A stretch of DNA of 64,000 bases. Origin: a virus. This document shows, in pieces, positions 35,806-59,663 of the stretch (position 1 is the first letter of the stretch; every line of letters begins with the position of its first letter). Location of the stretch: positions 1 through 64,000 of IMG/VR virus record IMGVR_UViG_3300017971_000213; one strand, 5' to 3'. Below the pieces are notes generated by a model. The model was given only the letters and a program-made list of their open reading frames with translations. It was not told the origin of the DNA and did not search any database. A program made the position numbers and the translations under genes.

Positions 35806-38313
35806 CTAACCCTTCGCGTTCTCTGACAAAAGCCTCGCGTAGTTGAACGGCGTCTCTCCTCCGAAATGCTGAAAGTCCTCTAGCTTAGGGGAAGTCCCTT
35901 CCTTGTAGACGCCTTTCCACCCCCTAGCCAGATTAACGTTAACCGTCGTATCGCAAGCGCTGTTGACGACCATGCTGTGCTGACAACTAACGATATTCGC
36001 CACGTAGTTCCTCTGCCTCCAGTACAACGGACGGTTCACCATGAGTCCAAAATGAGGGAGAGTCTGTAACCCGATATTACGAGCCTCCGCATTCGTCTTC
36101 CTTAGCTCCACCGCAGCAAAAAGACGGGCAGCCTCTTCAGAAGTGACCTCCGTCCAAGGACCTTTATCAGCTGCGGGGCGTACACCAAGCAGAGGAACAA
36201 GGCCGTGGGCTGCCGCCCACTGAAAGCGCCGAGAGTTGATGTCGTTGGCCTCTTCAACACGAGCGATGTTGTTCGGAGCTATTCGAGCCAACGTCTTGAG
36301 ACCGTTATCGTTCAGCGAACTGCTGAAACCGAAGGTTTCGTGACGGTTAATAGTAAAGTAGTCAGAATAGTTAAAATTCTGCGCGTTGTAGGAACCACCG
36401 AACCCCTCCAACGTGAGCTGAAGATCCGAAGACAGCTCCATCATCTCCAAAATATCAGACTCCGTGTAGTCCCCGCTCGCAGCAGACCACTCCGACACCC
36501 ATTCACGAAGCGGCTTCTCCCCTTCCTTTCGCAAACCCTGCAAACCTGCACGACCTTCGATCTCCGCATTCGTGATATGGGAGTCCTCTCCATCGAACAT
36601 CCAAGGATCGAAATCGTAGAAAGGCATCTCGAAAACAAGGTCCCCCCTACCTGTGGAGTAAAAACAGAACTGAATCTGCTCCGCCAAATCGTAAATGTAG
36701 GTAAGACGGTCACGAAAATCGGAATGGAGATCCCCCTGAGCCCCACTAACCATCTCGTTCATTACGCCTGCGGAGAGACCGAGACCCAGACGCGTCGGGG
36801 CCACGTAAAACACACGACCACCCCCTACTGGATAGGTGTCTATGTCCGACCCAATGATGCTGACAACGTCCACCACGCCGAGACCGTCAGAATTAGGGGC
36901 GGAGGTCTCGTCGGCAGCCATATCGGTTAGATCGTCAACACGAACCCGACTGTGCAACATGTCGTTGAGCTGACGCAGATTCCCCATCGTGATCGGACTT
37001 CCTGTGGCCTTCTCTAAACCGTCTAGCTCGGCGTCCCCGATGTAATATGCGTACACCCCCTTGGACTCTTCTTTGCGCTTAAACGTTACCCCGTGAGGAG
37101 CATACACCGGAGGGAAGAAGGACCCCTGGAACCTACTCTGCTTAGCGCCAATCAGGTACTCTTCCAAGGATGACCGCCGTTGAGTATCGGTCATCTTGTT
37201 GATTTCATCCAAACTCTTATAAACACCGTGCTTCTGAAGGAAGACCTGCACCTCTGAGTCACTGAAAGCCTCTACAGCCCGATTGGTCAACTCAGTCATG
37301 ACCCCCTCGTAGGCTTCCTTACCGAAGAAGAGCATCTCCAGAATCTCGTACGCAGTAAAATGAGCAAATAGCTCCTGATACGCAACCCAGTTCAACGCGG
37401 CTACGTCGCCCGCACCCTCGAACGCAGGATCAAACTTGAAGATCTCCTGAATGCTCTTGTCGAGCCCAGCGTCTACGTTGAGCTGGAAATAAGAGTACCG
37501 AAGTGTTTTACTGACGTCAGTCCCTACGATAGTAACCGTGGACTCCTGATTCACCCCAACGTCTTCGGTGAAACCGTCTACAAAGCCGGAAAACATCCAG
37601 TACCATATGGTCGGGACAAAAGGATCGCGAAACGCAATTCTTATAGGATCGTTCGGATGGAAGATGCAGTCACCTTCAGTAAAAGGGTACGTGTATATGT
37701 AATCTTCCAAAAAAATAGGAAACGCGTCCCAATCCTCTCCCAAGGCGTCTATGACCTTCTGAGACTCCGGGGCATACTGCGTGGCCTTCTTTTCCACTAC
37801 CGTCTTCTTTATGGAATCGGGGACAGAACCCTCCTCCCAGTTCTCCTGGAACCAACCCGAGGCAGCTCTCAACTCGTCATTGAATGCGCTAACCACGTCC
37901 ACAAAAGACTGCCCCACCTGCTCATTGGCGAATGCCCCAAAAAAAGCCTCTAGTACATCTACGTCCTCCCCCGCTTCGTCGCGAAAGTACTGCTGCAACC
38001 CTGCGAAGAGGGTAACGTTGTCTTTAAGGTAGTTGACAAGCTGTTCCCGGCTGTCGCTAAGCGCAACCATATCGGTATGATCGATGATGTATTTGTCCAA
38101 CGGGTTATGCAGAGTGATTGAACACGTAGAAGGAGCGCGATCCATGCTGCCCCCGGATTGGTTGACACGCACGTCTATAACGTCCCCCGACACCTCCTGC
38201 CCGTAAATGAAAACACGGAACGCCGGAAAAGCGGCGCGGTAGATGCCTTCTTGAGACGAGAGGACCGACTGCTCCGTCCAGAGTTTTTCACCCAGTTTAC
38301 CCAGTTCAACCAT
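35806..38313 (-). CDS. Baseplate hub protein, gpD/gp27-like
   Basis: This 835-residue protein starts with a hub-like beta domain (FRVFIYGQEVSGDVIDVRVN, then GSMDRAPSTCSITLHNP). A similar closing domain comes near the end (RQRNYVANIVSCQHS). Between them lies a large helical and mixed insertion (about 100-450), which makes the protein about twice the length of gp27-type hubs. FSGFVDGFTEDVG (about 245) is typical of tail hub proteins that interact with the spike. ATG 38313 overlaps the upstream stop (TGATG). The insertion may form extra contacts with the tape measure or membrane. Confidence 0.75.
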   Translation of the reverse strand: MVELGKLGEKLWTEQSVLSSQEGIYRAAFPAFRVFIYGQEVSGDVIDVRVNQSGGSMDRAPSTCSITLHNPLDKYIIDHTDMVALSDSREQLVNYLKDNVTLFAGLQQYFRDEAGEDVDVLEAFFGAFANEQVGQSFVDVVSAFNDELRAASGWFQENWEEGSVPDSIKKTVVEKKATQYAPESQKVIDALGEDWDAFPIFLEDYIYTYPFTEGDCIFHPNDPIRIAFRDPFVPTIWYWMFSGFVDGFTEDVGVNQESTVTIVGTDVSKTLRYSYFQLNVDAGLDKSIQEIFKFDPAFEGAGDVAALNWVAYQELFAHFTAYEILEMLFFGKEAYEGVMTELTNRAVEAFSDSEVQVFLQKHGVYKSLDEINKMTDTQRRSSLEEYLIGAKQSRFQGSFFPPVYAPHGVTFKRKEESKGVYAYYIGDAELDGLEKATGSPITMGNLRQLNDMLHSRVRVDDLTDMAADETSAPNSDGLGVVDVVSIIGSDIDTYPVGGGRVFYVAPTRLGLGLSAGVMNEMVSGAQGDLHSDFRDRLTYIYDLAEQIQFCFYSTGRGDLVFEMPFYDFDPWMFDGEDSHITNAEIEGRAGLQGLRKEGEKPLREWVSEWSAASGDYTESDILEMMELSSDLQLTLEGFGGSYNAQNFNYSDYFTINRHETFGFSSSLNDNGLKTLARIAPNNIARVEEANDINSRRFQWAAAHGLVPLLGVRPAADKGPWTEVTSEEAARLFAAVELRKTNAEARNIGLQTLPHFGLMVNRPLYWRQRNYVANIVSCQHSMVVNSACDTTVNVNLARGWKGVYKEGTSPKLEDFQHFGGETPFNYARLLSENAKG

Positions 38314-39065
38314 CACACCAACTCGTTAAAAAACTCAGTCCCCAGCGTGAGGGAAATGTACCTAAAAATGTCATCCATTGAAGGAATCGTTTCTGTCGCC
38401 ACGAAAGAAAAAGAGTACGTCTTGCTGAAAGGGTTAGCCGCGTCGTCGGTAAACTCCAGCACACGGTCAAAATGACCGATGAACTGAATCAACGCATTGG
38501 CCAACATAGGGCTACTGTACATGAAATAAAAACGATTAGGGTACCCCCCGAACGGATCAATAACAGGCTCCCGCGTGAGGCTGTACAGGTTCCAGAAGTT
38601 CACGAGCTTCGAAGCACCTTGCAACGCCTCGATATCAAGCCCCTCCTGGTTCGTGACCGACTTCACCCAGTCCCGGAACTTCTTGATATTCTCAGAGAGA
38701 TACTTGCTGTTGCGCTGCATCCCAGTACGGATGTTGATGTTCCCCGTCGCCCCAGCAAAACTGATGTTGATGACGTCGTTGTTGCGACCCTTCGCGTTCG
38801 TCCAGTGATAGAACACAGCACCGGACTGCGTATCTCGCCTCGTAATCCTCTTGTTCTGCGAAAAGGTCACAGTCTCCGGATTCATCTTCATGCGCACAGG
38901 ATCAATGCCGTTGTTCATACGTTGATCCGAAGTGAACATAAAAGGAACTCGATACGCAACATCCTCGTAGGGGTTGAGTATCCGATCAAGAATACGTTCT
39001 GTAGAAGGTGTAGGAGTCGTCTCCCCACCAAACGTATTACGCAAATTTTCCAAAAATGTCGCCAT
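38313..39065 (-). CDS. Tail/baseplate protein (tail tube initiator-like)
   Basis: This is a 250-residue protein. The beta-rich segment PVRMKMNPETVTFSQNKRI with RRDTQSGAVFYHW resembles tail-tip proteins that bridge the tube and hub and often carry LysM-like domains (gp53/gpX-like). Its position directly before the hub gene in transcription order and after the tape-measure genes agrees with that. No catalytic residues are seen. The name is inferred from location and strand pattern. Confidence 0.6.
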   Translation of the reverse strand: MATFLENLRNTFGGETTPTPSTERILDRILNPYEDVAYRVPFMFTSDQRMNNGIDPVRMKMNPETVTFSQNKRITRRDTQSGAVFYHWTNAKGRNNDVINISFAGATGNINIRTGMQRNSKYLSENIKKFRDWVKSVTNQEGLDIEALQGASKLVNFWNLYSLTREPVIDPFGGYPNRFYFMYSSPMLANALIQFIGHFDRVLEFTDDAANPFSKTYSFSFVATETIPSMDDIFRYISLTLGTEFFNELV

Positions 39066-39073
39066 TACCTACC

Positions 39074-41869
39074 TCAGCCCGGAGCGAGCCCCAGCGCAGC
39101 AAGCTGGTTAGCCTGCTCCCCTTGGCGCTTCTTGGTTCGCTCTCGATGTTGCTTTCCGGTTGCCCATTCACGCGCCTCGCGACCAGCAGCGGTATCAGCT
39201 CCTGGCCTCCAGAAGAGGGCACGCTCGTAGTTCCGTCCTCCAGAAGGAATGGAACCTAAGAGACCCCCACCCCTCATGAACGGCGGAAGTCCCTCGCCCT
39301 CGTTGGCGTGAATGAACCCCGTCGCACCCTTCGTCCAGTCCTGTGTCCCGGAATCACCTCTCAAGATGCTGCGCGCGAAATCAATCGTAGCCTGCGAGGG
39401 GCGACGGCGCGTAGCGTACTGGCGGTTGTACCGCTTATTGTTGTTCTGCTTCCCCCACCCCTTACCGGAAGTGGCCTTGTTCTTGAGAGCACCCCCACCC
39501 CTGCCCTTGGCACGATTGATCAGAGTGTGCGCGATACCTACCAGCTCCTTCTTGCGCGCAGGACTGTACCCTCCAGCTTCGCTCTGAAGGACACGAGCCA
39601 GCGCCTCCACGTCGTCCCCGGTGTACTTGCCCTCACTGGCAAGAGCCATACTGCTGAACTCTCCCTCCAGCTCCGCTTCCTCGGAAGCGAAGGAAAGCCC
39701 ACAACGAGGGCAGTTGCCGCCGATCTCGAATGAAATGTTGCCCTGGGTGTCTACACCGCCCACTTCGAGAGTGACTCCGCCTCCAGCCCACGGGCCGTCC
39801 CATTCCGACTGCGCAGCCTGAGGGTCCTTCTTTACCGAAGCAGGTGCCTTCGCCATCTGCTTGGGAGCCATCGAAGATTGACCCGACTGGAGCGATGCCA
39901 CGGGGATCTGCACCACTTGAGACGGAGCGAACGCGTTGCCCGCACCCCGACCCTTGGTACCCGGCATCGATCTGAGTCGAGAAGACGCAGGATCGAAGTT
40001 CCAGGCCTCCTGGAGGGTCTTCATCGAGGTCCCCAGGACGTCAGAACCCATGCGCTTCATCGCCTTTGTCATCTGGGACAGACCCCGGTTCATCTTGCGC
40101 TTGTGCTCTTCCGTGTTCCCGAACAAGGCGTTGATGTCAGCCGCCAACCGATTATTGTCCTGCTGATCGCCGCTGATGCCGTTCACAATGAACTCAGGGA
40201 GGGCCTTGAAGAACGCAATCAGCCACGACACGGCCTGGATGACCATGCCCATGATACCCTGCCCTACCTTGGCCAGTCCCTTCATCCACGAGTTCATCGT
40301 GCGCTCGAATTTGCTGCGCTTGGTGGCCTCCACGCCAAACGACTTGGACAGGATCTCGGAATTCTGCTTGGCCGCCGTGGCTGCCTCTACGGTCTTCCCC
40401 TCCTTCATCTTGGAACCGATCTCGGCTATCAGACGGGCACCCTCAAACCCGAGACCCATCTGCTTCTCCATGTAGAACCGCGCGGTCTCCTCGTCCCCTC
40501 CAGTGGCCTCCATGGCGATGTCGTAGACGGCCTCGACGATTCGCGTGACTTCTCCACTGTTGTTGCCCTCGGCAACACGGCGGAATGCGTCCATCATCTT
40601 CTGCCGTGCTTCGAGTCCTCGACCGTAGCCGAGCCGTTCCCCGAGAATGATCTTCCAGGAATCCGACATCTTGGCGATCCCAGACGCCATCTGCTGTATC
40701 CCCATCGCGGCCTGCTTTCCCGCGAACTGCTTGGGAACACCCATCTTGGAGAACTGCTCCGTAACGTGCGAGTAGATGTCCACGACGTTATCGATGTCGT
40801 ACCCCATCTTGGCCAGCTCCTTGCCAGCATCCTCCACGTTCTTCACGTACTGCATCGCACCGATACCGGAATCCCGACCCACCATGTACATCCGGGTCAA
40901 GGACTCCCTGGCCTCGTCAGTGGTCTTGCCGTAGTCGGCCATCAGGCCCACCATCCGCTTAGCGCTCTCCCCACCTCCCAGCTCGAACATCTTGTCCAGA
41001 GCCAGAGTCACCGTGACGGCACTGCTGTGGACGCCCTTGAGCCGCGTATCGACAGTCCGCGTCATCTGATCGACGCTGACACCGCCGTCGACAAAAGCCT
41101 GGGCAACCGACTGAATCTGTTCCCGGTTGATCCCCATGTACTGCTGCAACGACTCCTGGATCGAGGACAGGTGACGAGTTCCAGAACGTACAGCCCCCTT
41201 CACCCCGTCATCGTAGGCGGCGATGAGGATGTTCTTCATCTCCCCGGCCTGGGCACGAACCCTGTCGCGGTCCATGTAGCCGTGGATCATGATGCCGATA
41301 CCACCCGCTGCAAGGGCCTTCCACTTCGGCACCTTGAGCTTCTGCATCATGCCGCCGATCTTACCCTTCAGCGTCCTCCACTCTGACCGAACCACCTGCT
41401 TGGACTTGTTGGCCGCCCAAGCACGCGCACCGCTCTTCTTACGGCCCTTGCTGTCACGCCCCTTAGCGCCTCCTCCGCCGTCCTCGGCGTCCACCTGACC
41501 CGCAACAGCGTCTGCCTTGTCTACAAGCCCCCTTGCGCCCGCTGAGAGGCTCTCAAAGTCCTTCTCGGCGGCCTTGACCGTCTTCTCCAGCTCGTCGAAG
41601 GACTTACCCATGCTCCCCGCGAGCTTCTCGAACTTCTGAGAAACCCCCTGGACGTACTCCTGCCCCATACCGGTCAGCTTCGACCCCTCCTTGAGGGTGG
41701 GATCGTTCTCCAGATCCGAGAACACGGTCTTGAAGCTGTCGCGTAGAGACGCACCGAGCGCATCGATCATCTCAGTGTTGCGCTGAGATACCTCACTGAT
41801 GGCGTCACCGAGTTCGGTGAACTTGAACCGAGCAGCATCGAGATGCTGTATGTCAACGATATCGGTCAT
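39074..41869 (-). CDS. Tape-measure-like protein 1 with C-terminal cell wall hydrolase domain
   Basis: This 931-residue protein is related to the next two genes. All three share GYxxRDRxR near residue 200, a FAGKQA segment (about 385), and a helical membrane-like region (about 530-590, QGIMGMVIQAVSWLIAFFKAL). Unique to this copy, the C-terminal part contains a possible zinc pair CPRCGLSF (about 718) and a SleB-like hydrolase domain (about 750-880). That domain has ALARVLQSEAGG, ELVGIAHTLINRA, and TGFIHANEG, which could open peptidoglycan during DNA entry. It is coupled to the upstream paralogue by ATGA. Confidence 0.8.
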   Translation of the reverse strand: MTDIVDIQHLDAARFKFTELGDAISEVSQRNTEMIDALGASLRDSFKTVFSDLENDPTLKEGSKLTGMGQEYVQGVSQKFEKLAGSMGKSFDELEKTVKAAEKDFESLSAGARGLVDKADAVAGQVDAEDGGGGAKGRDSKGRKKSGARAWAANKSKQVVRSEWRTLKGKIGGMMQKLKVPKWKALAAGGIGIMIHGYMDRDRVRAQAGEMKNILIAAYDDGVKGAVRSGTRHLSSIQESLQQYMGINREQIQSVAQAFVDGGVSVDQMTRTVDTRLKGVHSSAVTVTLALDKMFELGGGESAKRMVGLMADYGKTTDEARESLTRMYMVGRDSGIGAMQYVKNVEDAGKELAKMGYDIDNVVDIYSHVTEQFSKMGVPKQFAGKQAAMGIQQMASGIAKMSDSWKIILGERLGYGRGLEARQKMMDAFRRVAEGNNSGEVTRIVEAVYDIAMEATGGDEETARFYMEKQMGLGFEGARLIAEIGSKMKEGKTVEAATAAKQNSEILSKSFGVEATKRSKFERTMNSWMKGLAKVGQGIMGMVIQAVSWLIAFFKALPEFIVNGISGDQQDNNRLAADINALFGNTEEHKRKMNRGLSQMTKAMKRMGSDVLGTSMKTLQEAWNFDPASSRLRSMPGTKGRGAGNAFAPSQVVQIPVASLQSGQSSMAPKQMAKAPASVKKDPQAAQSEWDGPWAGGGVTLEVGGVDTQGNISFEIGGNCPRCGLSFASEEAELEGEFSSMALASEGKYTGDDVEALARVLQSEAGGYSPARKKELVGIAHTLINRAKGRGGGALKNKATSGKGWGKQNNNKRYNRQYATRRRPSQATIDFARSILRGDSGTQDWTKGATGFIHANEGEGLPPFMRGGGLLGSIPSGGRNYERALFWRPGADTAAGREAREWATGKQHRERTKKRQGEQANQLAALGLAPG

Positions 41870-44175
41870 CGTGCGCCCATCCGGGTAGAGCTATTCTGAG
41901 AAACCCGTTTCCTCGATTCTATCAGAGAAGATGTCGTTCCTTTTTTACCCACAGCGGGTTTTGAAATACCGTCAGAAGACTCACTCACGTTGGAGTTCAT
42001 CGTGCGGTCCTTGGCACGAGCCTCCCTGCGAACCTTCTGCGGAGAGCGGCGTCTAGACTTTCTACCAGCCTGCGGTTTGTCTGCGGAGGAGACTGCCTTC
42101 TGGACCTTCCCTCGACGTTCCGTCTGATCAGGAACCGCCGCGTCCAGCTCCACGTCGGCGTCCGTATCGACATCGAGATCGTAGTCTCCGCTAGACAGAA
42201 TATCCGGGTCTTCGTCGATCAGGTCCTCCCGAACCCTTTCCTCGTCAACGTCCATACCCCCACCGTACCCAGGAGCCATCGGAGCCTCTACCGGGGCTTG
42301 ATCACGCAAAACATCCAAGAGAGGGCCAAACGTCTCCCGAAACTCACCACCCAAGGCCTGTCCGGCGATCTCGAAACCACCGATGAGCTTCTCCCAGCTA
42401 CCGGCCATCGTGTTGAAGACCTTGTTCTGCTGAGCGTAGATGCGGTGATACACCTCTTGACGCTCAGAAACAGGAGTCAAGAGAATCTGAGCCTCCCCTT
42501 TGAGGCCGACCATCAACACCGAGACCAGGTCCACCAGGATCGCCAGGATCGCCTCACCGATACGCGCCATCCCGCGAATCAGCTCTCTCCGAGTACGGTG
42601 CAAAGAGGAGACACGCTCGCTCTCCGTCTGGAAAGCCTTGCGAAGCTCTTTTCGCTCTTTCTCGGACAGGTCCTCCAGCTTGCCACCCTCAGCTAGCTTC
42701 TCCCCCGCGTCCCAAACCAACTGAGCAGTCCGGTTCTTGACGTTCAGAAGCTTCGAAGTGGCGTAGATCCCCCGACTCCGCGACGTAGAGGTCTTGGACT
42801 TCAGAGTACGTACGGTGGAACGGATGAGATTCTCCAAAAACTGGTCATCATCCCCCTTAGAGATGCGGCGCAGACCGTCGTCGAACCTCAGCATCAACGA
42901 AACCGCATCCGCCTCCTGGTCCTGGTACATGTCCCTAGCAAGAACGATCTTGAGCTGATCGTCCAGCTTCGTAAACGACGTCATCAGATCGGCTACAACA
43001 CCTTCGGCCTGCTTCCCCGCGTACCTCTCGGACAACCCATGCGCGGAGTAGAAATCGATCACCTTCCCCGCGAAAACAGCAGCCGTCTCCGCCTGTACGC
43101 CCATTCGCGAAAGAGGATCAGCAGCAGACATAACGATGCGCGTGAAGTTACGAACACCGATAGCGCTCCGAGCACCGGCAGCGGTCAACCGAGTGTAGAA
43201 CCCCGCAGCGTCATCCAACTTCATCCCGTAGTCGCGAACGAGACTCGTGATGTCCCCCATGGCCTCCGCCGTGGCGAAGTTGAAGTGCTTCCCTATACCC
43301 AGCGCCAGGGTGACGACGTTCTTCCCCACCTTCCCCAACCCATCATCAAAGGTCTTCAACATGTCAGAAGCGCGGAAGCCATTGTCGACCATCAACTTCA
43401 CCGCGCCCTGGGTTTCTTTCCGACCCACACCCCATTGCCACTGGGCACGCTCACCCCAGTTGGCAAACCACCGAGTGGCTCTCCGGGAACTCGCTGAGAA
43501 CAGCGAGTCCACACTACCCTCGAAGAGGTTGGCCATCTCGGACATCTCAGCACGCCGACGGTCACGCTCTGTGTACCCGAGAACCATCGCCCCGATGAGA
43601 CCACCGACAAAACCCGTAGCCACTCCCCCTGGAATCTTGCGCAGAACGCTCTGTAGCTGTTTCTTGACCGAAGCTGCCTCTTTGCCAACAAACTTCGCAA
43701 GACGTGATTGCCGCTCTTCGGCCTCATCAGTGGCGCTGTCTGCCTCCTGGGCCACCTTCTCGGTCGACTTCAGGGCCTCCTCGGCATCGTTCTTAGCCCC
43801 TGCCGTATCCGGGACCGGCGGAAGAGGTTGCGTCTTCTCGGGGGCTTCCCCTCGGGGGTCCTCGTTACCGAGAAAGTTTTCGATCTTCAACGACCGGAGC
43901 TTGTCGAGAGCGCTGCTCATGGTGCGCTCCTGTCGGTCGTACGCGCTGAGGCTGCTCTCAATCTTGGACACCGAGGCATCCGTCATGGGAAGAATCAACG
44001 GAGGAGGATCACCCACTGAACCGGAACCCAACGTGATGTCGTCCGATGCACGCATAACGCGCGCTGAAAGCATCTGAATCGTGTTCCCCAGCTCAGTGTA
44101 TGCTCGCGTGGTACCCTCTAGCTGAGAACTCAGCCAAGGGAGATCAACTACGAGCCGTGGAATACCGTCGGTCAT
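41866..44175 (-). CDS. Tape-measure-like protein 2 (paralogue)
   Basis: This 769-residue paralogue is the middle of three. It has MVLGYTERDRRR (about 200), a hydrophobic IPGGVATGFVGGLIGAMVLG stretch just before it, RYAGKQAEGVV (about 390), and TESERVSSLHRTRRELIRG (about 520) before a hydrophobic helix region. The N-terminal 150 residues and the C-terminal 150 residues (Asp-rich, then basic SRRRSPQKVRREAR) are low complexity and differ from the paralogues. No enzymatic domain is seen. It is flanked by 4-bp overlaps on both sides. It may form part of a composite tape measure or an internal tail protein. Confidence 0.75.
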   Translation of the reverse strand: MTDGIPRLVVDLPWLSSQLEGTTRAYTELGNTIQMLSARVMRASDDITLGSGSVGDPPPLILPMTDASVSKIESSLSAYDRQERTMSSALDKLRSLKIENFLGNEDPRGEAPEKTQPLPPVPDTAGAKNDAEEALKSTEKVAQEADSATDEAEERQSRLAKFVGKEAASVKKQLQSVLRKIPGGVATGFVGGLIGAMVLGYTERDRRRAEMSEMANLFEGSVDSLFSASSRRATRWFANWGERAQWQWGVGRKETQGAVKLMVDNGFRASDMLKTFDDGLGKVGKNVVTLALGIGKHFNFATAEAMGDITSLVRDYGMKLDDAAGFYTRLTAAGARSAIGVRNFTRIVMSAADPLSRMGVQAETAAVFAGKVIDFYSAHGLSERYAGKQAEGVVADLMTSFTKLDDQLKIVLARDMYQDQEADAVSLMLRFDDGLRRISKGDDDQFLENLIRSTVRTLKSKTSTSRSRGIYATSKLLNVKNRTAQLVWDAGEKLAEGGKLEDLSEKERKELRKAFQTESERVSSLHRTRRELIRGMARIGEAILAILVDLVSVLMVGLKGEAQILLTPVSERQEVYHRIYAQQNKVFNTMAGSWEKLIGGFEIAGQALGGEFRETFGPLLDVLRDQAPVEAPMAPGYGGGMDVDEERVREDLIDEDPDILSSGDYDLDVDTDADVELDAAVPDQTERRGKVQKAVSSADKPQAGRKSRRRSPQKVRREARAKDRTMNSNVSESSDGISKPAVGKKGTTSSLIESRKRVSQNSSTRMGAR

Positions 44176-46541
44176 TCGCTGTTCGGCCTCTTGAGGATAT
44201 TCTTCTGGGCTTCCTGGTTGGCAGTCCCGGCGTCACCGGCACTGAGCACCGTCTTGCCTTTGCTGGCACCCACCTGCTGGTCCACCTGGGAGCGCTTCTT
44301 CTGTCTCTTGTAAGCACGGCGTATACGAGCCAACTCTTTCTTCTGCAAATGCCCCTCTACGGCGCTCGCCCTCTCTTCCAGTGCCTGAGTGCGCCTACTC
44401 CACTTCTGGAAGTCTTCGCTCGGTGCCTCGCCTTCTTCAGGAGCGTGCATGAGCTTCATCATCTCCGACGCCCACGCAGCGTTCTTCAAGAAGTCGACCG
44501 TCATCTGGTCCTTGACCTGACGACGAAAGTCCTCGTCCCCCGCCAGGTCACTAAAAACACTCCCTAGCTCCTTGGCAGCCGCATCCGCATCCTCCAGAGA
44601 GGTAATAGGCCTCATGCCGCCGCCCGTAGGAACCTTGTAGTTCAGTGCGTCCAAAAGGGGCTTGAAGTCCCGTCCGAACTCCTTACCCAAGATGCCGGGA
44701 ACCATACCCGCGCCCTTCATGATCTGGTCCACACCGGTACCCATGTGCGCGTTCAGCGTGTCGAGTTGATCACTGATGCGACTCAGCTCGGTCTGCACCT
44801 GACCGGGGCTACCTGAAACCGCAGCGGAAACGATATCCGGGAGCGCACGGATACCTGTCACGATAACCCCTAGCAGCCCCACGAGAACCTTGATCAAGCC
44901 GCGACCGATCTCACCTATCGCACGGTAGAGACGACGCTGCGTCTTGTGCAACGATGATACCCGCTGACTCTCCGTCATGAAGGCACGACGCAGGTGCTTC
45001 GTCTCATCCTTCGACAGCTCGGACAAATCGTTGGTCCGCGCGAGCTTCTCCCCCAGATCGTACAACGTCGCCGCCGTACGGTTATCCATACCCTGGTACT
45101 CCATGACACGGATGGATTGAGCACGACTACGACCACCGCGACTGGACCACTGAGTGAAAAGCACCAACGCCTTCTGCATGAAGTCGTCGCCCCCACCCTC
45201 AGCAACACGAAGAAAACCGTCCTCCCACTTCTGGAGGGCGTCCAGCGCGTTCAGCTCAGGGAACATCTGCTGCGCCAGAACAGCCTTCATGCTCGGGTTG
45301 AGGTTCGCGAGACCTGCGGACATGCCACCGATGACCTGCGAGGCCTGATTGCCCGCGTATCGGGGATCGAGCCCCATGTCCTCGTAGTGCTTCCGGATGG
45401 TCTCCATGACGGACGCAACGTTGGACACGTCAACGCCGTACTGCTGCATCGCGGAGGAGCCTGAGATGACAGAATCGACGAACCTACCGATACCCATCGC
45501 GCTACGCTGCCCCGCGAAAGCCAGCTTGACGTACTTGTCCGTAGCGGTATCGAGAGAATCACCAAGCTCAGTAGTGATCTTGATGATGTTGCTCATGGAG
45601 GTACCGGTCTTCTGGTTGAAGTGCTTGTCCACGGCGATGGACGCAACAGTCACGTTCTTGCCAACAAGACCCAAGTCTTTGTTGTACGTGGTCATGAAGT
45701 CCTTCGACCGGTACCCAGCGTCAACCATGCTCTTCAGTACAGCCTGCGTTTCCTCCTTGGCCACCCCGTAGAACCACTGCGCGGTCTCTTGGAACCCAGA
45801 GAAGAACCGAGTAGCTCGCTTCGATGCTTTCGAAGAAAGCGCCTCTCCGGTAGCTTCGAAGACATTCAGAATCTCTCCCGATTGCCACCGAAGACGGTCC
45901 CTCTCCTGATACCCCATGACCATCGCAGCCAGGAGACCCCCAGCGATGCCCCCGGCAGTCATAACGCCGCCAGGAACATGACTGAGCACGCTCTTGACCT
46001 GACCCTTGGCGGCGTCCAGCTCAGACTTCAAGTACCGCTTAGCGCGGTTGATAACCATCACCGAGGCCTTATCGGCCTCCTGAATCTTCTTGATCGACTC
46101 CAAAGCCGCATGCTTGACCTCGTCGGAGGACATGCTGGCCAGGCGAACGCTCTCCTTGACGATTTCCGCCTTGGCCTCCGCTGCGCTGAGCTGAGGAGGT
46201 GTGGGGTCCTTGGTAGCGGCCCCCATCTTGACCCCCGACAGGCGAGTCATGTCGTTAGCGATCTTCTCGCTATGACGTGACATCTCTTCGAGGAGGTTGG
46301 ACGTAGAGCCTACCCCGGACTCCATGATCTGGACCGACCGCTCCATCTGCGGAGTGATCGAAGAGAGACTGACATTGACCGACGCCGCCTGCTCCTGGAG
46401 AGAGACCAGCTCTTCGTCCGTACGGGAAATGAGACCCTGAAGAGACCTGCCGAAATCCGTGTAGGTCCTCCGAACGTCGTCGATCTGAGCCTGGAACTTA
46501 TCCAGGTCGAATCGAAGCAGGTACTCTTCAGTGGTCGCCAT
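44172..46541 (-). CDS. Tape-measure-like protein 3 (paralogue)
   Basis: This 789-residue paralogue is the first of the three in transcription order, directly after the tail assembly chaperones, where a tape measure is expected. It has a coiled-coil N-terminus, VPGGVMTAGGIAGGLLAAMV followed by MGYQERDRLR (about 212), RYAGNQASQVI (about 395), and TESQRVSSLHKTQRRLYRA (about 525). A hydrophobic helical region (GLIKVLVGLLGVIVTGIRAL) comes next. The C-terminus is charged and helical. ATG 46541 overlaps the chaperone stop (TGATG). Three copies may set the tail length together or act at different stages. Confidence 0.8.
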   Translation of the reverse strand: MATTEEYLLRFDLDKFQAQIDDVRRTYTDFGRSLQGLISRTDEELVSLQEQAASVNVSLSSITPQMERSVQIMESGVGSTSNLLEEMSRHSEKIANDMTRLSGVKMGAATKDPTPPQLSAAEAKAEIVKESVRLASMSSDEVKHAALESIKKIQEADKASVMVINRAKRYLKSELDAAKGQVKSVLSHVPGGVMTAGGIAGGLLAAMVMGYQERDRLRWQSGEILNVFEATGEALSSKASKRATRFFSGFQETAQWFYGVAKEETQAVLKSMVDAGYRSKDFMTTYNKDLGLVGKNVTVASIAVDKHFNQKTGTSMSNIIKITTELGDSLDTATDKYVKLAFAGQRSAMGIGRFVDSVISGSSAMQQYGVDVSNVASVMETIRKHYEDMGLDPRYAGNQASQVIGGMSAGLANLNPSMKAVLAQQMFPELNALDALQKWEDGFLRVAEGGGDDFMQKALVLFTQWSSRGGRSRAQSIRVMEYQGMDNRTAATLYDLGEKLARTNDLSELSKDETKHLRRAFMTESQRVSSLHKTQRRLYRAIGEIGRGLIKVLVGLLGVIVTGIRALPDIVSAAVSGSPGQVQTELSRISDQLDTLNAHMGTGVDQIMKGAGMVPGILGKEFGRDFKPLLDALNYKVPTGGGMRPITSLEDADAAAKELGSVFSDLAGDEDFRRQVKDQMTVDFLKNAAWASEMMKLMHAPEEGEAPSEDFQKWSRRTQALEERASAVEGHLQKKELARIRRAYKRQKKRSQVDQQVGASKGKTVLSAGDAGTANQEAQKNILKRPNSE

Positions 46542-47832
46542 CAATCACTCTCCACGATCACAGTCGGCCTGTCGAGGCTCGGTTCTGCCTCCACGGACTT
46601 GTCCGATGTGACTTGGACCGACACCAAATCAACGTGCTCCACAATGTGCTGCTGAGAATGCTCGCGCTTCATGTCATGCCGGGCTTGACCGATAGTGCGC
46701 GCAGCGACATCCGACAGGGAGTTTTCCTCGATGTCGTCTTTGTTGAGAACCAGAGACTCCAGAAGGGCCTGGTTGTCCCGACCACCCCAGGACATCATCC
46801 GTTGCAGCTCCTCAGGGGTGCTGTCGCACTCGACGTCGCCGTCGTCCTCCATGAAGGCTTCCAGCTCGTCGGGGGTCATCTCCACGACACCGGTATCGAC
46901 GGGGCGACCGTCGTCACCAACCTGGCCCGATGCAGCGAGCTGACCCGCCACCTCCTGCTGGGTATGGAGCTGTTCGGTACGGTCTTTGATCATCGAGAGG
47001 ACGTCATCACGCCCAGTCATCACAGAAAGTGGCATGATCTCGTCAGGAGTAGGCATCCGAAGCAACCCCGTCTCCTCGTCCTCCACCGGACACAGGTTGA
47101 GGCCCAACATGCTCACCACCTGGTCTTTCACTATGTCCGCCATCAGCTCGATGTCCTTGTACCGATCCAAGTCCTCCTTGTTCATCGCCTCAAGCTCAAA
47201 CACCCACTGGGTATCGTTCATCCCCTTGATACGGGGGTCCCCGATGGGGATCTGTCGCTTCGTCAAGACCTTGGCCTTGATCCGAAGGCGAGAAGCTATT
47301 CGTCGCCAGACGGGGAAGACTCGGTCCCAGTGGGCTTCTCGCCCTCTTCCGAACCCTCCCCGGAGGATTTTTTTGCTGCGTCCTGGGCGTCCTCCCTACG
47401 CTGTTCGAGAGACTCCCAGAAACCCCACATCTCCTCCAGACGCTCCGGAGGACGCTCCGCCAGGTACTGCATCAGGTACTCGGCCGCGAAGTACTTCTGA
47501 TTGTAACGCCCCCGACCATCGACGAGCTGCACGATCTGACGTCCCTCCTCGGTGCTCTCCCACTCCTCGCGGAAGAACTCGAAGACAGGAATTCCGTTGA
47601 TGGCGCGAATGCCGATGGACAGTGTGGGCAACCTCCAGGAAGAAACCGTCGAGATGCGCGACCCGGTGTTGATGAACGAGTTACGCCAGTTCGACTCTTC
47701 CTCCGTCAGCAGACGTATCGTCCACTCACGGCCCATCCACAGGAAAGTATCCTCGATGGTCTCGCCATCGAGTTCCCGAGCAAGGTCCAGCAACATCTTT
47801 TTGGGACTTTGATTGTCGTTTGAAGGCAACAC
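46541..47832 (-). CDS. Tail assembly chaperone fusion made by -1 frameshift
   Basis: The downstream frame (to 46541) has no convincing start: the first in-frame candidates are a TTG at 47266 and an ATG with poor spacing, neither with a ribosome site. This frame is open upstream through the end of the first chaperone gene. A -1 slip on A AAA AAA at 47368-47374 would join the 155 codons before it to 275 codons in the new frame, giving about 430 residues. This is the lambda G/GT arrangement common in tailed phages. The extension is acidic and helical (MTPDELEAFMEDDGDVE). Its product should bind the tape measure, encoded immediately downstream. Confidence 0.85.
47296..47832 (-). CDS. Tail assembly chaperone (short product)
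   Basis: This 178-residue protein starts at GTG 47832, supported by GGAGGAG eight bases upstream. Longer upstream starts would run through the leader hairpins and are unlikely. It is alpha/beta with a helical middle (LTEEESNWRNSFIN, NQKYFAAEYLMQYLAERPPE) and an acidic Ser/Gly tail after the slippery site. It corresponds to the G-type chaperone that coats tail tube or tape-measure protein during tail assembly. It lies between the tube genes and the tape-measure genes, the canonical position. Confidence 0.8.
   Translation of the reverse strand: MLPSNDNQSPKKMLLDLARELDGETIEDTFLWMGREWTIRLLTEEESNWRNSFINTGSRISTVSSWRLPTLSIGIRAINGIPVFEFFREEWESTEEGRQIVQLVDGRGRYNQKYFAAEYLMQYLAERPPERLEEMWGFWESLEQRREDAQDAAKKSSGEGSEEGEKPTGTESSPSGDE
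47368..47374 (-). promoter_or_regulatory. Slippery heptamer A AAA AAA for programmed -1 frameshift
   Basis: In the zero frame the codons are GCA AAA AAA TCC, so the seven A bases form a perfect X XXY YYZ slippery site. A short G/C-rich stem can form just downstream (CCTC with GAGG). The -1 frame stays open to the end of the second chaperone ORF. Confidence 0.85.
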
Positions 47833-47848
47833 GGCTTTCGCTCCTCCT

Positions 47849-47887
47849 CCCGCTACGCGGGGTCTAATTGTGAGTCGCTTTCGCGAC
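47849..47887 (-). promoter_or_regulatory. Two-hairpin element between tail tube and chaperone genes
   Basis: On the minus strand GTCGC-GAAA-GCGAC (GNRA tetraloop; 47874-47887) is followed by TTAG and then CCCGC-GTA-GCGGG (47849-47861), which ends in the AGGAGG of the chaperone gene. The second stem is nearly the same as one after the capsid gene (59701-59714). It may be an RNA-processing, attenuation or translation-control element that lowers chaperone expression relative to the tube. Confidence 0.6.
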
Positions 47888-47891
47888 AAAC

Positions 47892-48497
47892 CTACAACAG
47901 AGGTCTCACCTTGGTGTAGACCATCGTTGCGTTGACTGAGACGATACGGTCTCCTTGCGCTTGCATGTTCCGACCCAGACTGGTGAACCAGCAACCCGAG
48001 TACCAGAGCTTCTCCACGCTCACTTCCATCCCCTGAGGGACGGCCCCGGTGTCGATACCATCGAGGTCGTTCTCGGTCCCGATACCCAGTGCACCCCCGA
48101 CCTTAGTGTTGCCGAGAGTGTTGAGCATGCTGTCGCTGACCGACTGAAGCCACGGGGTGAACGGGGAGTCGTCCTTCTTCCCGTACCTGACCCATTTCTC
48201 CTCAACGTCGAACGGGTTGTGCTGGTCGGTGAGCATGTAGAGTGCCTTGTCGGTCCCCCAGATCTCCTCCATCTTCTTCGTGAAGAGATCGTACCTCGCC
48301 ACCTGAACGGTCTGGGAAGACGAGATGCCGGCAACGTGCTCGATGGGCGCCCCGAGACCGACAGCGTTGATCTCGTACTTCGGCTTGACGTCCCTCGCCT
48401 GGGAAGGAGCCCACGTCTGGATATGTCCGATGGTCTTCCCGCCCGCTCTGATAGAGATCGCATGGCTAGTGCGTACTTGCGTGACGGGTACTGGCAT
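47892..48497 (-). CDS. Tail tube protein 2 (paralogue with insertion)
   Basis: This 201-residue protein is homologous to the neighbouring tube protein along most of its length. They share RTSHAISI near the start, IQTWAPSQ, TVQVARYDLF, MEEIWGT and, near the end, CWFTSLGRNMQAQGDRIVSVNAT. It has about 50 extra residues (about 125-165; SVSDSMLNTLGNTKVGG) before the final strands. The ribosome site is weak (AGGCC), so it may be made in smaller amount. It may form a specialised ring, for instance at the tail tip or terminator end, or a decorated tube. Confidence 0.8.
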   Translation of the reverse strand: MPVPVTQVRTSHAISIRAGGKTIGHIQTWAPSQARDVKPKYEINAVGLGAPIEHVAGISSSQTVQVARYDLFTKKMEEIWGTDKALYMLTDQHNPFDVEEKWVRYGKKDDSPFTPWLQSVSDSMLNTLGNTKVGGALGIGTENDLDGIDTGAVPQGMEVSVEKLWYSGCWFTSLGRNMQAQGDRIVSVNATMVYTKVRPLL

Positions 48498-48504
48498 GTG
48501 AGGC

Positions 48505-48951
48505 CTAGAGCGGTCGGATCTTGACGTAGTTGAGGGTCGCGTTGACCATCACGATACGGTCGCCCTGAGCTTGCATGTTGCGACCGATCTGCGAGAACCA
48601 GCAACCCTCGTAGTGGTAGAACTCGGTAGCGCCGTCCGGGTTTCTCCACTTCTCGCGCAGCTCCAAGGGATTGAGCTGGTCGGACAGCATCCAGAGAGCC
48701 TTCGCCGTACCCCAGACCTCCTCCATCTTGGAAGCAAAGAGGTCGTAACGCGCCACCTGGACGGTCAGGCCGGTGATGTTCCCCGGAACGTTCTCCGTCA
48801 CCTCACCACTCGTCTCCGACCGCAACTCGTACGTTGGCGTTATGGTACGAGACTGGTTGGGCGCCCACGTCTGGATCTGCCCAATGGGCACCCCTCCTGC
48901 CAGGATCGATATTGCATGGCTGGTGCGGATGTTTGTCTGCGGAACTGGCAT
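48505..48951 (-). CDS. Tail tube protein 1
   Basis: This 148-residue protein has the size and order expected for a myovirus tail tube protein, just after the sheath gene. It shows an N-terminal beta strand (SHAISILAGGVPIGQIQTW), a central strand-loop, and a final beta-alpha-beta pattern (CWFSQIGRNMQAQGDRIVMV). A strong GGAGGAGG-type site lies upstream, fitting high expression. It shares about half its positions with the 201-aa paralogue directly downstream. Confidence 0.85.
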   Translation of the reverse strand: MPVPQTNIRTSHAISILAGGVPIGQIQTWAPNQSRTITPTYELRSETSGEVTENVPGNITGLTVQVARYDLFASKMEEVWGTAKALWMLSDQLNPLELREKWRNPDGATEFYHYEGCWFSQIGRNMQAQGDRIVMVNATLNYVKIRPL

Positions 48952-48974: not shown

Positions 48975-51476
48975 CTACGCTGCCACGCTGAAGAAGGGGT
49001 TGTCGACGGAGAACTCACCGAAGAACCGCTTGGCCGGGTACTTCAGGTTGTACCAGTACTTGAAGTAGAACGTCCTCGGATCGGTCGAGGACTGGTACAC
49101 CTGGATGTCCGTGGTGGCGTCGATGTCCCTCGGGAGACCGGAAGAATCGCGGTAAGCCGCGATGGAACCGTTGTTGATGTTCGCCAGGATACCGAGCAGA
49201 ATCCACTTCTTGCAGTCTGTGATGAAGTCCGCGAGGTCGTCCGGAACGATACCCACAACGTTGCTCGTGAGCAACGTATCGACAGTCTTGGTGACAGCGT
49301 CCTTCTGCGCACTCGCTGAAGGCTCCTCGAACTGCACCACCTTGCCCCCGCCGGCCTCGGTGGTGAGAGGATCGAGCATGACGAAGCGACCTGCGTCGTA
49401 GGTGACTACGAGGACACCTTTGTCCGCCAGAGCGTGCCGCTCCCCGCGCAGGTAGGTCCCGAAACCGTCAGCGGTGAAGCCGGTGATCTGGAGACCGATG
49501 AGCGCCGACGAGGGACTCGGGAGACCCGCATAGATGGACGCCACCGCCGCCGCGATGTAGGTCCCGTCTAGATCGACGTTGACCTCCTGTCCCGTATCCA
49601 GGGTGAGGGTACGGGTAGCGTTCGGCGGAGCGATAAGGTGCATGCGCCCGCGCCCCGGAGAGTTGTTGCCCGGCTGGAGCGTCTGGGTGGACGCGAAGAT
49701 CAAGGTCCCCGGCGTATCGGGATCACCGACGTCGGTGTCCCTGGCCATGCCGAACCAGCCGCGACGATAGTGCTTCTCCAGCATCGACGACTCGCTGGAC
49801 ACATGGTTCATCTGGTAAACCATCGTCTCCAGCGCCGTATCGAGGGTCAACACTTCGGTGATGTTGACGTACTCCTTGGCCACGTCGATAGCAGAGTTGA
49901 TCTGGGTCTGCGTGGGAGAACCCGGCACCGTGGCATCGTTGACCTGGACCAAGTAGAGCGAAGACGCTCCGTTCTCGAAAGCAATCTCACCTGCGATACA
50001 CAGATGGTTGCGGATGTAGTTGCTCAGGTTGAGCTGCGTCGTATACGCGTAGAGCTGGTCGACATCGAAGACCCGGTGAGCGGTGGAGTAGTCCGTGGAA
50101 GGCCGGGTGTAGTCGTAAGTGCTGTAGAAGGAGGTCCCGTAAGCGGGACGCTGTCCGGTCCCGTTCACGATGTAGGGCTGCGTGATGTTGCCGAAGATGG
50201 TCGTGAAGGCGTCGGTGGCGTTCGACAGGAACATGATCGAGGACGCGGCGCCCTTCTCGGCCGGCGTGTTCTCGAACGCATCCGGAGCTGTCAGCACCAC
50301 CGTGTTGCCCAACACCTGCGCCACATGGCTGAACTCGGGACCGTAGGCGGTAGCGATGCTGTTCAGTGCCGTGTTGATGTCATCCGCCACCGTGGTCACG
50401 TTGGTCGGAGCGCCTGGGGTTAGCGTAACCGCCACCTGGGTGAGACCGTTGATCTGGATGAGCAACTGGTCGTTCACGCCGGCCACAATCGTCGGAGGAG
50501 ACGCAACGAAGTCAACCGAAGTCACCGTAGCCTGCGACCACGAAGTGGTGTCCCAATCAAGATCGTTGGAAGCACCATTCTCGTAATCGTAGTTCTTGAT
50601 GTAGTCGATACCGCCCGGATACGAACCCACGCTGACAATGTCGGACAGCGGCGTCGAAGTGCCGGCTCCGGACAGAGCGTCTGTGAGCGTCTCGATTGAG
50701 ATGTACTCGATGGTGTAGGTGGCGGCGGAGTTGTAAGCGGCGTCAGCAACCGTGATGGACGTCGCGGCCTGCACCCCACCCGAAGCCGCCGGAACCCACG
50801 CAGCGTTTGAAATGATGGACGCGGCGTCTTCTTCCATCGACAGGAAGACCTTCACGTCACTGGCAGACTCCGTCGAGGGAGACGTGAGAGTGATGTACTT
50901 CTGCGTCACACCAGCGACCGCCGCTGCCACCGCAGAGTATGCAGCACCGTAAGTGCTGTAGTAGGTCCCCAAGGGATTACCCAACTCGTAGTTGACGTAT
51001 GCCGCGACCTCGTCCGCAGTCGCCGTAGCAGGGGCCGCGATGATGCCAACCGGGGCAACACCGAAATCGATGGTCACCGCGCGCTTCCCATCGAGAGACA
51101 CGGTGAAGTTGTGAGTACCGCCAGCGGTGGATACGTCCACCGTGGCAGCGCCCCACTCCGAGCCGGTCAAGACCGCCGGGTTGAACGACCAATCTCCGAG
51201 ACCCAGCTCGTTGTCGTTCATATACAGGACGGCCTCGTTGCGGGATCTGTTCGAAGCGTTCGACAGAGTAGCCGTATGAGGGCTAGAAGACGCCACGGTC
51301 AAGGTCTCGTCGTACACCTTTCCGCGAACGATCTCCTCGTCGACGCTACGACGAGTCCGGGGCGCAATCCCGACCAGAGCGAGCGTTCTCTCGGACGTCA
51401 CCGAAACGGAACCCGGAGTGATTACCTCCGAGATATATACGCCAGGGTCAACGTATCGTGAAATCGAGATTGCCAT
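48975..51476 (-). CDS. Contractile tail sheath protein
   Basis: This 833-residue protein begins with a sheath-type N-terminus (ISRYVDPGVYISEVITPG and the related SERTLALVGIAPR). Its C-terminal domain has the conserved sheath pattern VVTYDAGRFVML, DAVTKTVDTLL, DFITDCKKWILLGILANI and TFYFKYWYNLKYPAKRFFG. It is longer than T4 gp18 (659 residues), with large beta-rich insertions (about 150-420) that probably form outer domains. GGGAGGATT precedes ATG 51476. It heads the tail operon behind the TTTAGAATCCC motif, as expected for a highly expressed gene. Confidence 0.93.
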   Translation of the reverse strand: MAISISRYVDPGVYISEVITPGSVSVTSERTLALVGIAPRTRRSVDEEIVRGKVYDETLTVASSSPHTATLSNASNRSRNEAVLYMNDNELGLGDWSFNPAVLTGSEWGAATVDVSTAGGTHNFTVSLDGKRAVTIDFGVAPVGIIAAPATATADEVAAYVNYELGNPLGTYYSTYGAAYSAVAAAVAGVTQKYITLTSPSTESASDVKVFLSMEEDAASIISNAAWVPAASGGVQAATSITVADAAYNSAATYTIEYISIETLTDALSGAGTSTPLSDIVSVGSYPGGIDYIKNYDYENGASNDLDWDTTSWSQATVTSVDFVASPPTIVAGVNDQLLIQINGLTQVAVTLTPGAPTNVTTVADDINTALNSIATAYGPEFSHVAQVLGNTVVLTAPDAFENTPAEKGAASSIMFLSNATDAFTTIFGNITQPYIVNGTGQRPAYGTSFYSTYDYTRPSTDYSTAHRVFDVDQLYAYTTQLNLSNYIRNHLCIAGEIAFENGASSLYLVQVNDATVPGSPTQTQINSAIDVAKEYVNITEVLTLDTALETMVYQMNHVSSESSMLEKHYRRGWFGMARDTDVGDPDTPGTLIFASTQTLQPGNNSPGRGRMHLIAPPNATRTLTLDTGQEVNVDLDGTYIAAAVASIYAGLPSPSSALIGLQITGFTADGFGTYLRGERHALADKGVLVVTYDAGRFVMLDPLTTEAGGGKVVQFEEPSASAQKDAVTKTVDTLLTSNVVGIVPDDLADFITDCKKWILLGILANINNGSIAAYRDSSGLPRDIDATTDIQVYQSSTDPRTFYFKYWYNLKYPAKRFFGEFSVDNPFFSVAA

Positions 51477-58817: not shown

Positions 58818-59663
58818 CTAGAAGCGCGCACCCAACTCACGCTCTGCCCACTTCTTCACCGACGGGTAGAAACCGTGTCCGAGCAAGTACTCCAGATCTC
58901 CCCGCGTGAGCTGCTGCCCCTCGTCGAGATCCCGCAACTCGTCCAACATCGGCCCGGCCTTCATCCGGTCCTTCTCCTCGACGTCGTCCCCCACGCTGTT
59001 GCAGATGCCCACTACACGCGCCGTGACCTTGTCCTGGGGGTCCATGGGCTCCGCCTCACGCTCCTCGGCCATCTGCTCGATGGTCTTGCGCGGCTCCGGA
59101 GAGGGCTTCGTGAAAGTGCGTCGGTTCTGGAGGTCAGACTGCTCCTGGTGAGCCATGTCGATGGCCTCCTCAGCCGAGATACCGTACTGAGCACCGAGCT
59201 TCTCGTAGTACTCCAAGTACTCCCCCTCGTCCATGAGGACGAGTACCGGCGGACGGCGGTTGACCATCTTGCGCAGGTCCGTGGACGCCTTGATGGCGTG
59301 GAACGGAACGAGCTGCGTCAAGTTGATCGGCTTCTTCCCCTTCGGGATGAGGATCGACTCGGTGCGACCCACGATAAGCTCGAACTGGAGCGACACCTGA
59401 GTGTTACTGCGGTTCTGCACGTAGACGTCGCGCTCCTCACGGAAGTACTCCGTGAAGTTGGTGATGATCGGAACCCTGTTACCTTGACCGTTCATGACAA
59501 CCTCCCTGGGATCTCTCGCCAGTTTGATGATGAAAGGCTCTCGCTTCACCACGACAGCCTTCCCCTTCTTGACCAGTTTTCTCGCCCTGGCGGGATGGGT
59601 GTACGACAGGACGGACCCGGACGTGTCCAAAACCGGGACCCGCGAACCTGTCGTACGTACCAT
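58818..59663 (-). CDS. RRXRR-domain protein adjacent to capsid gene
   Basis: This is a 281-residue protein. Residues ~8-48 (VPVLDTSGSVLSYTHPARA, then RKLVKKGKAVVVKREPFII and KLAR) match the RRXRR domain. That domain is known at the N-terminus of HNH-nuclease proteins and of IscB, where it reads VLD..G.PLMP..PARAR.LL..GKA.V..R.PFTIQL. No HNH or RuvC motif follows. Instead there is a beta-rich region (QVSLQFELIVGRTESILIPK), a helical middle and an acidic/Lys C-terminus (about 185-281). It follows the capsid gene behind two hairpins, so a head-associated or DNA/RNA-binding role is possible. ATG 59663 has AAGG upstream. Confidence 0.6.
   Translation of the reverse strand: MVRTTGSRVPVLDTSGSVLSYTHPARARKLVKKGKAVVVKREPFIIKLARDPREVVMNGQGNRVPIITNFTEYFREERDVYVQNRSNTQVSLQFELIVGRTESILIPKGKKPINLTQLVPFHAIKASTDLRKMVNRRPPVLVLMDEGEYLEYYEKLGAQYGISAEEAIDMAHQEQSDLQNRRTFTKPSPEPRKTIEQMAEEREAEPMDPQDKVTARVVGICNSVGDDVEEKDRMKAGPMLDELRDLDEGQQLTRGDLEYLLGHGFYPSVKKWAERELGARF

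Follow-up and report, generated by a model that had tools for sequence, protein, structure and literature searches.

Three full-length tape-measure paralogs in tandem in a viral tail module and their possible assembly as one heteromeric bundle

Organization of the tail module

The window analysed here, i.e., the whole stretch of 64,000 nucleotides, forms the left-hand 64 kb of a virus record of 129,006 bases. Its tail genes are encoded on the minus strand in the order sheath, two tubes, G, T, A, B, C, X, a hub-like gene and further baseplate genes. The tail sheath gene (48975..51476, minus strand) codes for a protein of 833 aa which matches gp178 of Bacillus phage G, named as a tail sheath (E 3e-9). 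Two tail tube paralogs of 148 aa (48505..48951, minus) and 201 aa (47892..48497, minus) follow, both matching phrog_985 (2.7e-7 and 4.8e-6, respectively). Next comes the open frame of a G-like tape-measure chaperone (47296..47994, minus), whose true start lies inside the frame, and then a T-like extension frame (46541..47266, minus) predicted to be translated via a -1 frameshift from G. G is joined to T at a -1 slippery site, the heptamer A AAA AAA (47368..47374, minus), with TCC next to it. A -1 slippery heptamer stands at the equivalent place in 18 of the 20 tail modules examined, the variants found in relatives being GGGAAAA, CCCTTTA, AAAAAAC, AAAAAAT and GGGAAAC; none was found in the modules of L058 and L059.

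Downstream of this chaperone pair, three consecutive genes code for tape-measure paralogs: copy A (46541..44172, minus; 789 aa), the first in transcription, copy B (44175..41866, minus; 769 aa) and copy C (41869..39074, minus; 931 aa), which has an extra C-terminal region. The 931-aa gene, listed first in an initial reading of the sequence only, is leftmost on the plus strand but last in the order of transcription. The stop of A and the start of B share an ATGA overlap (44172-44175), as do the stop of B and the start of C (41866-41869), and both overlaps resemble those of translationally coupled genes. Another IMG/VR record, of 192,260 bases, carries copies A and C identical to those of the window. 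Directly after C lies gene X (38313..39065, minus), coding for a 250-aa protein which we describe as tube-initiator-like from a weak PF23980 match and its position in relatives. The conserved next gene (35806..38316, minus) probably encodes a hub-like baseplate protein of 836 aa, a name inferred from its position.

The three genes are full-length paralogs

The sequence-only reading had reported an ordered set of motifs common to the three proteins. The GYxxRDRxR, [FY]AGxQA and TESxRVSS segments are indeed collinear, with a measured spacing of ~185 residues between the first two (about 190 in that reading), and the hydrophobic region placed after the TESxRVSS segment is present at residues 539-567. 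Paralogy extends far beyond these motifs and far beyond chance, so that the check named in that reading, for alignment outside the motifs, spoke for it. By BLASTP, A and B are 33% identical over 650 aa (E 1e-102), A and C 23% over 589 aa (E 1e-43), and B and C 25% over 431 aa (E 2e-43). Alignment with hhalign of family profiles, built from four orthologs per copy, was significant for all pairs (E 7e-99 to 1.8e-39): A-B over 621 columns at E 7e-99, the two being aligned at residues 4-636, A-C over 584 columns at E 2.8e-41, and B-C over 464 columns at E 1.8e-39. A, B and C are full-length paralogs, similar over ~600 N-terminal residues, and their C-termini alone are unrelated.

That these paralogs are tape measures, as first proposed from the letters, agrees with their gene position, with the frameshifting G/GT chaperone and with fold matches. 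In the window and its relatives, they are sited after the sheath, the tubes and the G/GT chaperone pair, and before the baseplate genes; tape-measure genes characteristically have a frameshifting chaperone encoded upstream of them (PMC3556154; PMC2147016). An AlphaFold model of B, based on 15 natural sequences, had a pLDDT of 60, with a helical domain at residues 188-625 reaching ~70-85. The top named matches of this model in BFVD by Foldseek were tape measures (probability 1.00, best E 2.9e-9, TM ~0.3). A model of C has its helices in the same order as that of B, both AlphaFold models being of modest confidence. Copy B and some relatives gave weak matches, under the curated cut-offs, to TMP_3 (best E 0.0009), PhageMin_Tail (0.0057) and PHROG tape-measure profiles, the window member itself being below cut-off; phrog_1272 (tape measure) was matched at E 5.7e-5 in one relative. 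Because of position, frameshift and fold, we place A, B and C with the tape measures.

Copy number among relatives

Relatives were retrieved from IMG/VR using A, C and the tube protein as queries, for a total of 20 distinct viruses. Copies were counted at the tape-measure site and, for most viruses, across the whole record. Three copies are found in nine viruses (the window, or G001, and G002, G003, G004, G005, L044, L046, L047, L048), two copies in four (L058, L059, L064, L075) and one copy in seven (Rctr197k, L062, L063, L069, L079, L084, L085). The seven single-copy relatives bear out the earlier premise that one tape measure per phage is the usual state. None of the 20 viruses carries four copies. 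As two-copy viruses are not rare, three appears as a ceiling and not as a rule.

A more divergent tandem pair is found in L070 and L072 (763 and 657 aa at L070:11552-15814), and the pair of L070 is possibly another independent duplication. No relatives of A or C were detected in INPHARED by tblastn, nor any relatives in the GTDB genomes searched with the family alignment.

Two routes to three copies

The window's group is designated clade 1, and L046, L047 and L048 constitute clade 2. In the clade 1 tree, each of the three copies is monophyletic and the internal branching is identical in all. We considered that orthology might hold 1:1:1 between the copies of all three-copy viruses, a reading which AU tests rejected after the addition of clade 2. 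In the resulting tree, the A and B copies of clade 1 are sisters (100/100), as are the B and C copies of clade 2 (98/93). With the small tree, clades joining the A copies, or the B copies, of both groups were rejected (p ~6e-7), the value for the C copies being p 0.034; with the larger tree, the corresponding values were p 4e-78 for A and p 2.6e-5 for C. The first copy of the two-copy viruses L064 and L075 joins A+B of clade 1 (100/100) and the second joins C (100/100), so that these viruses preserve a two-copy, pre-duplication stage of clade 1. The rejection of 1:1 orthology and the two-copy stage of L064 and L075 together show that three copies arose by two routes, the only two documented.

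Gene conversion could blur such a tree. A single ancient triplication followed by conversion between neighbours, of A with B in clade 1 and of B with C in clade 2, would account for the sister pairs being genomic neighbours in each clade. We regard this origin as improbable, since the two copies of L064 and L075 fall with A+B and with C, respectively, the pattern which a later A/B split would leave, since no mixing between copies is seen inside recent clades, and since gene X occupies differing places among the copies: in Rctr197k it comes after the single copy, in clade 1 after the last of the three, and in clade 2 between A and B.

C-terminal domains

Differences between the copies are concentrated at their C-termini. 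The CPRC cysteine pair ascribed earlier to the last copy is real in C (residues 720-723; 39701..39712, minus) and conserved in the C copies of clade 1, and copy 2 of both L064 and L075 has a related cysteine pair. It is followed in C by a putative cell-wall hydrolase domain (residues ~746-862; 39284..39634, minus), SleB-like by motif only. The motif, consisting of one invariant Glu, LNR, GYG/GWG and (D/N)P..GAT.F.H, is found in copy 3 of clade 1 and in copy 2 of L064 and L075. Of the earlier proposal of a SleB-like hydrolase on the last copy, this motif resemblance stands; a profile match does not, as the isolated C-terminal domain gave no hydrolase match in Pfam, PHROG, NCBIfam or PDB at permissive E-values. 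Likewise, three whole genomes searched at E <= 10 contained no PF07486 match, and a Foldseek comparison of the C model with PDB gave no support for SleB. Because the resemblance is at the level of motifs, we do not assign the domain to SleB / Hydrolase_2 (PF07486).

Other lineages carry other domains. Copy 3 ends in a glucosaminidase domain (PF01832) in L046 (43.5 bits, for a cut-off of 30.2) and L048 (38.5), and in an SLT-like domain, below cut-off, in L047. In L058, it is copy 1 which ends in a peptidase M23 domain (PF01551; 39.7, for a cut-off of 28.7), the match in L059 being weaker. No Pfam hydrolase was found in the single-copy proteins tested. Each multi-copy set thus has just one copy that ends in a hydrolase or hydrolase-like domain; the class and the position of the enzyme vary between lineages, yet the restriction to one copy stays.

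Such a distribution could reflect a functional split, in which one or two copies act as the ruler and the others are lumen or pilot proteins at one end of the tube, with roles in holding the DNA end, forming a membrane channel or entering through the cell wall. This is the main rival to the heteromeric bundle discussed below. It would explain why C-termini differ between copies, why a hydrolase or hydrolase-like domain sits on one copy only, and why the C copies of clade 1 have a long branch. Still, all copies retain the full N-terminus and core at equal length, most with both hydrophobic segments, and the hydrolase-bearing copy differs between lineages. We consider such a division between ruler and non-ruler copies unlikely. 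In agreement with the sequence-only reading, a putative cell-wall function appears confined to one copy.

Ruler length

The N-terminus and core together average 592 +/- 4 aa in viruses with three copies, 582 +/- 13 aa with two and 548 +/- 21 aa with one. Viruses with more copies do not have shorter ones, indicating that copies were added and that the ruler was not divided. The single protein of Rctr197k aligns with C without net gap over 339 residues (225-563 vs 184-522), and with A over 401 vs 400 residues. These equal alignment spans, together with the N-terminus and core lengths, indicate that each copy is a full ruler. In three-copy viruses, core length varies by 1-5% among the copies of one genome. 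A within-genome covariation of lengths, which would be a sign of side-by-side packing, was sought and none was found beyond general constancy (shuffle p 0.91).

Lengths were converted by taking 0.15 nm for each residue of a fully helical chain, with myophage A-1(L) as calibration, whose tape measure was modelled to residue 689 for a tail of 104.5 nm (PMC10966104). One chain is then computed to span from ~90 nm, if its N-terminus and core are counted, to 118 nm for A in full, and A, B and C placed end to end (2489 aa) ~373 nm. Tail length would equal this sum, ~370 nm, if the three proteins formed a composite ruler, an arrangement raised by the sequence-only reading, and very long tails do occur in jumbo phages. 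Yet single-copy relatives which share this tail module encode a complete tape measure of ~650-740 aa, whose ruler part is about that of each of the three copies (548 vs 592 aa). Moreover, the copies are homologous across the whole ruler part without shortening, and every copy keeps a common set of N-terminal and core elements, as expected of parallel chains. A hetero-oligomer therefore fits better than a composite ruler, to which we give little credence. Least probable of all are alternative rulers, each copy forming its own homotrimer, one per virion, in a mixed tail population: the genes are separately translatable and their C-terminal domains differ, but equal ruler lengths would leave tail length unchanged, the ATGA or similarly tight junctions suggest balanced co-expression, and all three copies have been retained long-term in nine divergent viruses.

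A possible heteromeric tape-measure bundle

Taken together, the full-length paralogs, the ceiling of three, the two routes, the tight junctions and the single enzyme copy point to a heteromeric bundle, most simply A:B:C. We lean towards the reading that A, B and C are diverged full-length tape measures of one contractile tail, assembled as such a bundle; its assembly and stoichiometry, the presence of the proteins in the virion and their function in entry are what we infer here. The tape measure of JBD30 is trimeric, with three chains running through the tube (PMC11445458). In myophage A-1(L), three C-terminal helices were modelled at the tip, together with a six-fold bundle (PMC10966104). In the viruses studied here, A, B and C would replace the usual homotrimer and run next to one another through the tube lumen, one of each, or in a 2:2:2 ratio if the bundle is six-stranded; two-copy viruses would build a 2:1 bundle.

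Translational coupling through the ATGA overlaps would ensure a balanced supply of A, B and C, which the G/GT chaperone, produced by frameshifting from the frames just upstream, may coat. Tube subunits would then polymerise along the bundle, whose length of ~90-120 nm would bring elongation of the tail to a stop. The strongly hydrophobic segments could form a membrane channel at DNA entry. The putative hydrolase would be located at the C-terminal, tip-side end, on copy C alone, hence one enzyme domain per bundle. About evenly poised is the wider proposal that, in this virus lineage, a homotrimeric tape measure has repeatedly become an obligate heterotrimer, through duplication until the copies match the symmetry of the complex, one chain being specialised to cut the cell wall.

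How many tape-measure chains a tail contains, and in what arrangement, is still debated, three or six strands being considered. A family with one, two or three paralogs makes this question testable, since distinguishable chains can be counted and tagged singly, and a comparison of tail lengths between one-copy and three-copy viruses would separate side-by-side from end-to-end rulers. If the heteromeric bundle is correct, the family would show clearly how duplication can turn a symmetric complex into an asymmetric one, with the enzyme kept on a single chain.

Comparison with known tape measures

Single tape measures of the TMP_3 / PhageMin_Tail type (e.g., JBD30 gp46, phiCbK gp95 and A-1(L) gp13) resemble A, B and C in their locus, and share with them a long helical protein, hydrophobic segments and Foldseek similarity. 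They are encoded by one gene, whereas the window has three full-length paralogs in tandem with a hydrolase-like domain on one, and the sequences of A, B and C are too distant from known tape measures for gathering-level Pfam matches. The phiCbK tape measure carries a CHAP cell-wall hydrolase domain (PMC3556154). Like the virus of the window, the large myophage 0305phi8-36 has paralogs among its tail genes and a chaperone of the G/GT type; unlike the window, its paralogy lies in the chaperone and in domains of other virion proteins, and it has one long tape-measure gene (PMC2147016). Tandem, duplicated or split tape measures were not found in the literature searched, and similar wording on SuMu, Shady and phiCbK refers to other things.

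The closest and only named relative, Rctr197k (KX853510.1), has a common gene order, with a sheath 40% and a major capsid protein 60% identical to those of the window. Unlike the window with its three, it has exactly one tape-measure homolog, of 669 aa. This gene (KX853510.1 78062-80071) is annotated as a misc_feature "similar to hypothetical protein" and can be named tape measure protein.

Other components of the structural modules vary as well. Tube paralogs number two in the window and three, in tandem, in several relatives with a single-copy tape measure (L062, L063, L069, L079), and tube and tape-measure copy numbers consequently vary independently. The sheath measures 833 aa in the window, 927 aa in Rctr197k and 1046 aa in L033 (L033:4391-7531; also L034:14000-16783), a strong variation indicating that large sheath insertions are tolerated. 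A gene coding for a TnpB-like transposon protein of 396 aa is inserted in the structural module of L033 (L033:1872-3062, minus). RRXRR/HNH-type and homing-endonuclease genes are scattered in structural modules, for instance at 58818-59663 in the window, at L009:307-1308 and as Rctr197k_064.
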